From Synergistaceae bacterium (GTDB taxonomy: Bacteria; Synergistota; Synergistia; Synergistales; Aminobacteriaceae): 5,405 nucleotides of DNA. Shown piece by piece: positions 1,421 to 4,181 of this stretch. The first letter of the stretch is position 1, and each line of letters starts with the position of its first letter. The position numbers and the translations under genes are program-made. The stretch covers positions 1 through 5,405 of the forward strand of contig JAFTBT010000151.1 of the NCBI GenBank assembly GCA_017455085.1, given 5' to 3'. The notes below the pieces were generated by a model. The model made no database searches. It worked only from the letters and a program-made list of their open reading frames with translations, and was not told the origin of the DNA.

Positions 1421-2470
1421 ATGACTCTCACCAGTATACTCCGCTCAATCACTCCCCCTGACTCTCAGGCAATGCATGACGCTCAAGCCATCCTTGACGG
1501 CAAAATCAAGCCCCCCAAAAGTCTCGGAACACTCGAATCCATAGCCGTACGCTTGGCCGGAATCACTGGCAGCCCTCGAAACACTATCACCCGCAAAGTA
1601 ATATGCTTGTTCGGGTCCGATCACGGAGTCTATTCCGAAGGAGTATGCTCTTCACCGCAGGACTTCACCCAAAAACTAATGCATGTCTACGCAGACTCCC
1701 AAACCGGCGGGATAAACATTCTCGCTCGTCAGGCAGGCGCAGAGTTACGGCTCTATGACTTGGGCGTGAAGGGACTCGCTCCTCATCCAAACATCATCAC
1801 GCAAAAATTCATGCCATCAGGTACTCGCAGCTTACTCCGTGAGCGTTCTATGCCTCCGGAGACAGCCAAGAGAGTAATCCTGTGGGGTATAGGCCTCGTG
1901 CGGGAGATGAAGGCTCAGGGAGTTGACCTCATCGGCACAGGAGAAGCAGGCATGGCGAACACTACTCCGGCTTGTGCGTGCATAATGGCAGCTACGGATT
2001 CGCGGGACTCGTCTCTAGTCGGGAGGGGTGCAGGTCTGGATGACGAGGCATTTGCGCGGAAACAGCGTGTGATTCTTGACGCTCTGGACCTCCATGCGGA
2101 GAGCCTCACTGATCCGGTAAACATACTTTCTTGTGTCGGAGGGCTGGACATAGCAGCTATGACCGGTGTATTCATCGGAGGGGCTGTGTATCATGTGCCT
2201 GTAGTTGCGGACGGAGTGATCTCTATTGCGGGGGCGTTGCTGGCGTATAGGCTTGAGCCTCTTGTGCGGGAATATATGCTAGTCTCTCACGAATCCCCTG
2301 AACCTGCGTACACACATGCAGCTAGATTCATGAACCTGACTCCGTGCCTGAAGATGGGCATGCGTTTAGGTGAAGGAACTGGATGCGCGGTATTCATGCA
2401 CATAATTGACGACGCATTAGCTATAATTAACGGCATGGGAGATTTTTCCCAGCTCACGAAGGGAGAGTAA
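1421..2470 (+). CDS. cobT: Nicotinate-nucleotide--dimethylbenzimidazole phosphoribosyltransferase
   Basis: CobT transfers the phosphoribosyl group of nicotinate mononucleotide to the lower-ligand base (5,6-dimethylbenzimidazole or a related base). It makes alpha-ribazole 5'-phosphate and releases nicotinate; this is the cytosolic nucleotide-loop branch of cobalamin synthesis and salvage. At 349 residues it has the usual family length. Motifs in order are PPKSLGTLE (31-39), FGSDHGVYSEGV (64-75), GGINILARQAGAE (96-108), GTGEAGMANTTPA (172-184), GRGAGLDDEAFARK (201-214), NILSCVGGLDIAAMTG (234-249), VVADGVISIAGALLA (261-275) and MRLGEGTG (314-321). Glu318 in the last corresponds to the catalytic Glu317 of Salmonella CobT, and Glu175 to Glu174 of its base pocket. 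All key parts are present, so the enzyme should be active. It lies 3 bases before the nicotinamidase fusion, which also produces nicotinate. No cobalamin riboswitch is visible upstream. Confidence 0.95.
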   Translation: MTLTSILRSITPPDSQAMHDAQAILDGKIKPPKSLGTLESIAVRLAGITGSPRNTITRKVICLFGSDHGVYSEGVCSSPQDFTQKLMHVYADSQTGGINILARQAGAELRLYDLGVKGLAPHPNIITQKFMPSGTRSLLRERSMPPETAKRVILWGIGLVREMKAQGVDLIGTGEAGMANTTPACACIMAATDSRDSSLVGRGAGLDDEAFARKQRVILDALDLHAESLTDPVNILSCVGGLDIAAMTGVFIGGAVYHVPVVADGVISIAGALLAYRLEPLVREYMLVSHESPEPAYTHAARFMNLTPCLKMGMRLGEGTGCAVFMHIIDDALAIINGMGDFSQLTKGE

Positions 2471-2473
2471 TCA

Positions 2474-3577
2474 ATGAAAGATATTCTAGTTGTTGACTGT
2501 CAATATGATTTCATCAACGGCACATTAGCCTGCATACACTCCGAAGAGGCCGTCAAAAACATCATCGCCTACATCAACGCCAACCCCTCAGCGAGAGTCT
2601 TCTACTCAGCAGATGCCCACAGCCTCAAACACTGCAGCTACATTCCCAACGGCGGAACTTGGCCGGTACACTGTCAGGCAGGGACTCACGGCGCAGAACT
2701 GCACAGCTCATTCACAACGGACATCATCAACCCCGAACAGCGTCCCACTGAATCCAACACCTTCTACAAGGGAACAAGAGACGACCGCGAGGAGTATTCA
2801 GCTTTCTGGGCCGGAAACAACGCAGGACAGAATTTGTGCGAAGTACTCGGGCAGGACGTACTTATCTGCGGAATAGCTACCGAGTTCTGCGTCAAGGAGA
2901 CCGTGAAAGAGTTTGTGTACACTTGGCGGAATATAGAGGTTTGTGCTGATATGCTTGGCTGGGTTGACGACGAAGGCCACAAAAAGACTCTGGAGGAACT
3001 CTCAGCGTGGGGAGCAGAGTCCGGGAAAATCAGCACGGTAATTTTGGGCGGACACTTTGGGGATTCGGTGATAGATTATTGCTGCTGGGCGGCACTGGAG
3101 AGTGTTTTTCACGAGGAAGGCAATCTCAAGCCGGGACAGGAAAGCATGATAGACACCATTACCGAATCAGCTTGGGGAAAATCATACGGTGCAGGAGACC
3201 CCGCAAAACTCTTAGCCTCAGCAATAGCCGCCGCTCCCGACCGTGAACATGAACTCCGTGATGCATTTGCAGATCTCGGAACACCAAAGAATCTTCCGGC
3301 ATGGATGGTATCGCTCAAGAATAGGGGCTGCAGAATCGTGTGCATGTCAGAGTACGCAATGAAGTCTGAAGTTTTCGAGGCAGTCAGGCCTGAAGCTCCG
3401 GAAAGCCTCGCAGGGAAATACGGCCTTGTTCCGTCTGAGTGCATATTCACCGCAGATGATGAGGGACTCTGTGAGGCAGCAAAAGCAGCAGGGTTTTTCG
3501 CACTGCCCTCGCCTAACATGGCTCACTTGCGCAGAGCGTTGAGCAAGCTCTTCGTGAAGGTAGACGTTCATGATTAG
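2474..3577 (+). CDS. Nicotinamidase (PncA-type) fused to a degenerate HAD domain
   Basis: The N-terminal part (residues 1-186) is a nicotinamidase of the isochorismatase fold, which hydrolyses nicotinamide to nicotinate and ammonia. The triad is visible: Asp8 (VVDCQYDF), Lys99 (FYKG) and Cys139 (GIATEFCVK). The metal ligands Asp47, His49 and His66 sit in SADAHS and WPVHC. From residue 187 the protein continues without a break into a second domain resembling the HAD protein encoded next door. Shared blocks are STVI, AW/VWG, AGDP, EHELR..FA..G, LKNRG and KY.LVP.EC.F. The HAD catalytic residues are mostly gone: the nucleophile Asp region reads LGGHFG, the motif III lysine segment is deleted, and the DD of motif IV reads TADD. 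Only Ser292 of motif II remains. This half is therefore probably a pseudophosphatase with a structural or regulatory role. Standalone PncA proteins are about 180-215 residues. It starts 3 bases after cobT, behind a GGGAG site. Confidence 0.85.
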   Translation: MKDILVVDCQYDFINGTLACIHSEEAVKNIIAYINANPSARVFYSADAHSLKHCSYIPNGGTWPVHCQAGTHGAELHSSFTTDIINPEQRPTESNTFYKGTRDDREEYSAFWAGNNAGQNLCEVLGQDVLICGIATEFCVKETVKEFVYTWRNIEVCADMLGWVDDEGHKKTLEELSAWGAESGKISTVILGGHFGDSVIDYCCWAALESVFHEEGNLKPGQESMIDTITESAWGKSYGAGDPAKLLASAIAAAPDREHELRDAFADLGTPKNLPAWMVSLKNRGCRIVCMSEYAMKSEVFEAVRPEAPESLAGKYGLVPSECIFTADDEGLCEAAKAAGFFALPSPNMAHLRRALSKLFVKVDVHD

Positions 3578-4181
3578 CACAGTCATCTTTGACATCGGAA
3601 ATGTGTTAGTAGATTTCGACTGGGACGGATTCATTCACAGGATGTTCCCCGGACGCGAAGAACTCATCACGGAACTGGACGAGGCAGTCTGGGGCGGAGG
3701 CAGGTGGGACAGACTCGATGCCGGCGATCCTCCGGAACAGGTGTTTGCGTCAATCATAGCCCACGACCCCAAACATGAACATGAACTCCGCAAAGTCTTC
3801 GCGAACGTCGGCGATACCCTCAGAAAACGTCCGGCAAGCTCTGTGTGGATCACTGACCTCAAGAATCGGGGCTATAGGGTGCTGTACCTGTCGAACTACT
3901 CCCGCTACGTGATGGGTCTGAATCCCGGAGTGCTGGACTTTCTGCCGCTGATGGACGGAGGAGTGTTTTCGTGTGACGTCAGACTCATCAAGCCGGACAG
4001 GAGAATCTACGAGTGCATAGCGGAAAAGTATGCTCTAGTGCCGGGTGAATGCGTGTTCATTGACGACATAGAGAAAAATATCAAGGCAGCAAGAGATTTC
4101 GGGTTTCATGCGATACAGTTCGGGTATCTTGAGCAGGCGCAGAGAGACCTGAATAACTTATTGGAGGCTGATAAATCATGA
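3570..4181 (+). CDS. HAD-superfamily phosphatase, YihX-like (subfamily IA)
   Basis: A 203-residue cytosolic hydrolase with all four HAD motifs. Motif I is FDIGNVLVDFD with nucleophile Asp8 and a DxGNV form typical of YihX-like phosphatases. Motif II is YLSNYS with Ser108. Motif III is Lys141 in LIKPDRRIY. Motif IV is FIDD, Asp165-Asp166, followed by EKNIKAARDFGFHAI as in the family. The helical cap lies between residues about 18 and 90. The length is normal. YihX of E. coli acts on alpha-glucose-1-phosphate, but the substrate here cannot be read from the sequence. The context with cobT and a nicotinamidase makes alpha-ribazole phosphate or a pyridine nucleotide plausible, which is inference. 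The gene overlaps the end of the fusion gene by 8 bases and its stop overlaps the next start (ATGA), so translation is probably coupled. It shares 14 identical bases (3245-3258 and 3777-3790) with the upstream pseudo-HAD region, in line with tandem duplication. Confidence 0.85.
   Translation: MISTVIFDIGNVLVDFDWDGFIHRMFPGREELITELDEAVWGGGRWDRLDAGDPPEQVFASIIAHDPKHEHELRKVFANVGDTLRKRPASSVWITDLKNRGYRVLYLSNYSRYVMGLNPGVLDFLPLMDGGVFSCDVRLIKPDRRIYECIAEKYALVPGECVFIDDIEKNIKAARDFGFHAIQFGYLEQAQRDLNNLLEADKS

Follow-up and report, generated by a model that had tools for sequence, protein, structure and literature searches.

The stretch of DNA that was analysed (the window; 5,405 nucleotides from a Synergistaceae contig) contains a single 367-residue open reading frame at positions 2474–3577 of the forward strand, which starts with ATG and joins a nicotinamidase (PncA) part to a HAD-derived part. 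The gene for CobT (1421–2470, forward strand; TIGR03160, 346.6 bits with a cut-off of 319.3) ends three bases before the fusion gene. An intact, YihX-like HAD-IA protein, which is likely the sister of the HAD-derived part of the fusion, is encoded on the same strand at 3570–4181 (PF00702 and TIGR01509 above cut-off). E. coli YihX is the best match among solved structures to the profile of this downstream HAD's family. The last eight bases of the fusion gene (3570–3577, forward strand) are also the first eight of the HAD gene. The intact HAD gene lies downstream of the fusion in the window and in the genomes G043 and G044, which are all three of the fused loci seen, and it is followed by a DUF308 protein and then by a DeoC/LacD-family aldolase. 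The genome G044 has an ankyrin-repeat gene between these last two genes. The Rfam scan of the window identified no riboswitch or other family at the gathering threshold.

A RecO-like gene occupies positions 743–1375, and its matches to RecO_C (21.2 of 22.1 bits) and TIGR00613 (15.3 of 48.7 bits) are both under cut-off. Judged by eye, a RecO-like gene precedes cobT in the window and in loci L002, L004, L046, and L047; the protein in L046 has no Pfam match. Within positions 282–833 of the window, the 5' region of the RecO-like gene is present as three partial copies. They include a 123-base unit at 326–448, 513–635, and 711–833, the copies of which are 71–73% identical to the middle one, and a 58-base upstream unit that is likewise tripled. 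The last 123-base copy alone runs into the full RecO-like gene, and the partial copies look like remnants of tandem duplication.

The PncA half of the fusion comprises residues 1–182 (2474–3019, forward strand) and matches the Pfam family PF00857 (Isochorismatase) over residues 4–181, with an E-value of 2.3e-12 and a score of 47.8 bits against a cut-off of 27. It contains D8 (2495–2497), K99 (2768–2770), and C139 (2888–2890), which we take to be the catalytic triad, and D47 (2612–2614), H49 (2618–2620), and H66 (2669–2671), presumably the metal ligands, all on the forward strand. The first-pass annotation of this DNA had described the open reading frame with its intact triad and ligands; the six residues are present as described and are identical in all seven fused and all 38 unfused PncA rows, a count that leaves out five distant members of the 50-row PncA tree. 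The sole NCBIfam match is the equivalog PRK11609 (bifunctional nicotinamidase/pyrazinamidase), the score of which, 49.7 bits, is so far under the cut-off of 174 that the protein belongs to a distant PncA subfamily, with nicotinamide as its presumed substrate. Judged from its sequence, the N-terminal half is probably a nicotinamidase with intact active-site residues. Three sites in the PncA half are specific to the fused proteins, which is not an unusual number, since control clades have 0, 1, 1, and 17 such sites. Residue W151 (2924–2926, forward strand) is a tryptophan in all seven fused PncAs and a glycine in all 38 unfused ones.

The C-terminal half of the fusion, residues 183–367 (3020–3574, forward strand), had no match in a Pfam search. 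Its resemblance to the neighbouring HAD, recognised in the first-pass annotation for about 180 residues, is borne out by 33% identity to the product of 3570–4181 over 206 alignment columns and by profile matches. Searched through 5.8 billion proteins, the profile of three fused C-terminal domains has 11 matches, of which two are fragments of the pseudo-HAD kind and nine are 200-residue HAD proteins with E-values of 1e-16 to 4e-15, the named ones being 'HAD family phosphatase [Synergistaceae bacterium]'. The alignment and the profile matches rule out that the C-terminal half is an unrelated domain.

The sequence motifs of HAD phosphatases are eroded in the C-terminal half. The position of the motif I nucleophile, which is aspartate in all 38 intact HADs, is G192 in the window (3047–3049, forward strand). 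Glycine is found here in six of the seven pseudo-domains, and aspartate in P0003. The motif II serine, S292 (3347–3349, forward strand), is kept in the window and in six of the seven pseudo-domains, and is followed by a gap of 20 alignment columns that are missing from all seven, a loss that the first-pass annotation had overlooked. Short pieces near RWDR and DTL are also missing from all seven. The alignment places R305 (3386–3388, forward strand) at the motif III position, where the fused proteins have lysine in four cases and arginine in three, that of the window included. The first aspartate of motif IV is replaced by A327 (3452–3454, forward strand) in the window, which reads A327-D328; alanine is present in five of the fused proteins, glutamate in one, and aspartate in one (P0003, where the alignment is uncertain). 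The losses from motifs I, III, and IV noted in the first-pass annotation are thus correct for the window, but they are only partly general, as P0003 keeps the aspartate and four proteins keep the lysine. The C-terminal half of the window's fusion has neither the motif I aspartate nor the combination of a motif III lysine with a motif IV acidic pair that characterises catalytic HAD phosphatases, and the fused HAD copy seems incapable of phosphatase activity.

Models predict that the C-terminal half contains a HAD-like core with a C1-type cap. The model of the isolated pseudo-HAD domain has a pLDDT of 88.1, and that of the full-length fusion has a pLDDT of 89.9 and a pTM of 0.80. The full-length model contains a C-terminal strand that the isolated-domain model lacks. 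In the alignment used for the full-length model, the C-terminal half was covered by the seven fused rows only. The alignment for the domain model combined three pseudo-domains with 34 intact HADs, so this model may lean toward the intact-HAD fold. A joint alignment of fusions, PncAs, and HADs was set aside because the HAD N-termini were misplaced in it. The VIA-align comparison was made with the domain model, and the 50 Foldseek matches listed for the full-length model belong to the isochorismatase superfamily. The first-pass annotation had staked its reading on the second half folding as a HAD domain and on the fusion occurring in close relatives. The predicted fold (pLDDT 88) is HAD-like, and relatives do have the fusion, within one clade.

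Seven distinct full-length fused proteins were identified, six by protein search (P0001–P0006, 64–100% identity, including that of the window) and one in the genome G043. The genome search covered 81 genomes from the family of G002, a Synergistaceae metagenome-assembled genome (MAG); 48 of the 81 had some match. Two of them, G043 and G044, carry the fusion with the same neighbours, and the G044 protein is P0006. A private frameshift or an assembly artefact is ruled out by the seven distinct proteins, two of which come from whole genomes among the 81. A close PncA (E-value below 1e-50) is encoded in 43 of the 81 genomes, and a HAD gene adjoins pncA in 36 of these: two with the fusion and an extra intact HAD, and 34 unfused. 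The unfused pairs overlap by four bases in 31 cases, by eight in one, and by eleven in one, and one pair is separated by a gap of 105 bases. No HAD gene was found within the examined stretch around pncA in the remaining seven genomes; one of their contigs, L057, ends 261 bases after pncA. A 429-residue open frame in G045 was considered as an independent fusion and rejected, because pncA and the HAD gene are distinct at this locus, with 105 bases between them. Two shorter proteins of 131 and 132 residues, P0017 and P0018, span the greater part of the pseudo-HAD domain but are altered at the N-terminus, and look like damaged or split versions of it. Their first halves are identical to each other and P0017 matches P0006 exactly in its second half, so P0017 may derive from a chimeric contig.

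In a tree of 50 rows, the seven fused PncAs group together as a single clade (SH-aLRT 100), with the unfused PncAs of G034 and G027 beside it. The HAD tree of 45 rows likewise places the seven pseudo-domains in one clade (SH-aLRT 100), the branch to which is 2.66 changes per site long. Both trees are quick ones with SH-aLRT as their support. Because of the long branch and the unsettled placing of the intact HADs, the HAD tree gives no proof as to which HAD gene was copied. We favour the adjacent HAD gene as the source, based on its position, the best hits, and the junction, which reads ..KIS / MISTVI... Since the fused loci retain an intact HAD gene downstream, the C-terminal half appears to be a second HAD copy that arose in tandem and became attached to pncA. 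The homology and the single clade of fused proteins are direct results of the comparisons, and tandem duplication followed by joining is the event that we infer from them. Alternatively, a sole HAD copy may have been fused and an intact HAD re-acquired later.

The pseudo-domain is under weakened purifying selection. The rates were calculated from the DNA of three of the seven fused genes. The NG86 dN/dS values are 0.12–0.16 for the PncA half, 0.08–0.11 for the intact HAD, and 0.32–0.42 for the pseudo-domain. The corresponding pseudo-domain values are 0.36–0.43 by maximum likelihood and 0.42, 0.43, and 0.78 by YN00, the last from the pair G043–G044; in these two methods several pairs were saturated or gave no estimate. 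The NG86 values are quoted because the neutral simulations use NG86. Among 300 neutral simulations per pair (median 0.80), values as low as those observed occurred in 0, 0, and 6, the six belonging to G043–G044. With the exception of the YN00 value of 0.78 for one pair, the estimates indicate purifying selection on the pseudo-domain after the loss of catalysis. An unselected lineage with 0.55 changes per site would have stayed free of stop codons with a probability of about 0.003. This argument counts for less, since the frame could also be preserved by coupling of its translation to that of the overlapping HAD gene. The evolution of the pseudo-domain is much faster than that of its neighbours, and P0017 and P0018 look damaged, so that selection, though real, is weak across much of its length.

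These rates raise the main rival explanation, in which the fused HAD copy is a tolerated passenger in slow decay. A premature stop in it would break the translational coupling to the overlapping HAD gene, and PncA would suffer from a misfolded tail, so that the frame would be kept. The relaxed dN/dS, three to four times that of the neighbours, the mosaic loss of motifs, the damaged appearance of P0017 and P0018, and the near-identity of the tail DNA across the HAD gene start all speak for a passenger. The position of dN/dS under the neutral simulations speaks against it, as does the pattern of conservation within the domain, described below, and we regard the explanation as possible but doubtful.

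The most conserved stretch of the pseudo-domains is a block of cap helices, residues 242–266 (3197–3271, forward strand), which contains the EHELR motif and is helical in the models. The mean pairwise identity of the seven pseudo-domains is 0.78 in this block and 0.55 overall, which makes it the first of 149 windows, whereas in the 38 intact HADs the same block ranks 146th of 149. This pattern was not reproduced in 2000 random seven-member sets of intact HADs: none of the 642 sets with a mean identity of at most 0.62 reached 0.78 in the block (the best value was 0.58), and none ranked it higher than 81st. For seven near intact HADs, the identity is 0.79 in the block against an average of 0.80, which places it 97th. 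The block was picked after the conservation table had been made, for which the window rank corrects in part, and its EHELR core had already been named in the first-pass annotation. The synonymous divergence of the block (pS 0.47–0.62) is ordinary compared with the rest of the pseudo-domain (0.53–0.62), but its non-synonymous divergence is low (pN 0.13–0.15 versus 0.32–0.41), and the constraint therefore acts on the protein. A block that is conserved at the protein level only, in reverse of its rank in intact HADs, is not what is expected of a decaying passenger. Compared with the intact HADs, the constraint in the pseudo-domains has thus shifted, with the cap block now its strongest point. The proposal of the first-pass annotation that selection is not aimed at catalysis is in line with both this shift and the dN/dS of 0.32–0.42. 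The surface-type blocks it listed fared unequally: the EHELR region is well conserved, but the other two are not conserved in the family, as LKNRG is retained only as LK..G and four of the seven proteins have a KY.LVP.EC.F block that lacks three residues. The C-terminus reads VDVHD in six of the seven fusions, and P0002 ends in VDVHA. The tail VKVDVHD overlaps the HAD gene start, where the DNA is nearly identical in two of the three loci and the last 15 bases are identical in all three, and it was therefore not counted as protein evidence.

A further rival explanation is pairing with the intact HAD. The pseudo-domain would then take the place of one chain in what was once a HAD dimer and tie PncA to the phosphatase; the first-pass annotation had proposed dimerisation with the active HAD. 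The intact HAD lies directly downstream in all three fused loci seen, and an EHELR-like block is common to it and the pseudo-domain. However, the matching block in the three intact HADs of the fused loci shows no raised constraint (pN 0.09–0.19 versus 0.10–0.16 in the rest of the protein), and it is among the least conserved windows of the 38 intact HADs. Given the lack of matching constraint, we do not favour such pairing and consider it improbable.

The other suggestion of the first-pass annotation was the sensing of a phosphorylated pyridine or ribazole compound, through which the pseudo-domain would regulate PncA. The gene for CobT adjoins the fusion gene, the motif II serine is kept in six of the seven pseudo-domains, and motif III is lysine or arginine in all seven, but support does not extend past this neighbourhood and these residues. 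The region of the old pocket is loosely conserved, and the 20 adjacent columns are gone in all seven proteins. Ligand sensing is therefore very improbable.

The metabolic setting was surveyed in ten chosen genomes, G043, G044, and eight with unfused genes. Neither NadA nor PF04095 (NAPRTase) was found in any of the ten. A missing NAPRTase was nevertheless rejected, because a QRPTase/NAPRTase-type gene is present in all ten, and the G043 protein matches the nicotinate phosphoribosyltransferase PRK08662. A strong NAD synthase match was found in nine genomes and CobS in all ten. The idea that the HAD stands in for a missing CobC is weakened by His_Phos_1 proteins in all ten genomes, the identity of which as CobC is putative. 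It is plausible from the family names that nicotinamide is converted to nicotinate and then to NaMN, which feeds NAD and CobT. In Bacteroidales MAGs (L006, 3397–5579; L007, 3451–5579), a related pncA with 38–39% identity overlaps the preceding gene by four bases, and this preceding gene in L006 matches the NAPRTase N- and C-terminal domains.

The N-terminal half of the fusion shares its fold, D-K-C triad, and metal-ligand positions with stand-alone PncAs (PF00857; PDB 1ilw, 3pl1, 5zn8). In contrast to the fusion, the solved prokaryotic PncAs listed are single-domain proteins of 159–216 residues, none with a HAD-like domain. Drosophila nicotinamidase (PDB 9u8m, 357 residues) is also longer than the catalytic domain, but the match covers residues 195–278, so that its extra part precedes the matched domain, unlike the C-terminal addition in the fusion. 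The operon HAD is homologous to the pseudo-domain, and the profile of its family best matches YihX; compared with this HAD and with YihX-like HAD-IA phosphatases (PDB 8pno, 8pne, 2b0c), the pseudo-domain lacks the nucleophile in six of seven cases and the 20 columns after motif II in all seven. Soluble epoxide hydrolase (PDB 1s8o, 5aki) provides a precedent for a HAD-IA domain within a two-domain enzyme; there the HAD domain is N-terminal and its partner is an alpha/beta hydrolase. Within the same PncA subfamily, NadE-PncA (P0008, P0009, P0011, P0013) and CobT-PncA (P0007) proteins carry an NAD- or NaMN-related partner, which by family match is a whole enzyme domain, and PncA is C-terminal in P0007 and P0008. 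Fusions of this subfamily with NAD and NaMN enzymes occur repeatedly. No paper on a PncA-HAD fusion or pseudophosphatase of this kind was found in a literature covered by titles and the opening parts of abstracts, with subscription journals little represented.

Based on the conservation, selection, and predicted structure of the pseudo-domain, a course of events can be proposed. The adjacent HAD phosphatase gene would have been duplicated in tandem and the copy joined in frame to pncA, a single event in one lineage with kinship to rumen Synergistaceae. The HAD copy would have lost its phosphatase chemistry and been kept as a folded module for protein contacts. The cap helices 242–266 may be the selected surface, and part of the pseudo-domain probably packs on the PncA half. 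The pseudo-domain may hold the enzyme in a particular assembly or let a partner set the activity of PncA; candidate partners include a second fused chain, CobT, and the intact HAD. We consider such retention of a non-catalytic HAD copy as a folded contact module to be probable, with modest confidence. The fast evolution outside the block, the YN00 value of 0.78, the damaged appearance of P0017 and P0018, and the lack of the domain in most relatives are points against it. A more specific role, in which the pseudo-HAD is a pseudophosphatase acquired by gene fusion that acts as a regulator or scaffold to couple NAD salvage by PncA to the neighbouring CobT/HAD step, and in which its working surface now lies on the cap helices instead of in the catalytic pocket, is unlikely.

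An intact paralogue, an inactive fused copy, and many unfused relatives are available side by side, which enables a direct comparison of the loss of catalysis and the subsequent new use of a HAD domain. Nicotinamidase is plausibly an important step in the NAD supply of these bacteria, and a contact role of the pseudo-domain, if true, would add a layer of control to this enzyme.
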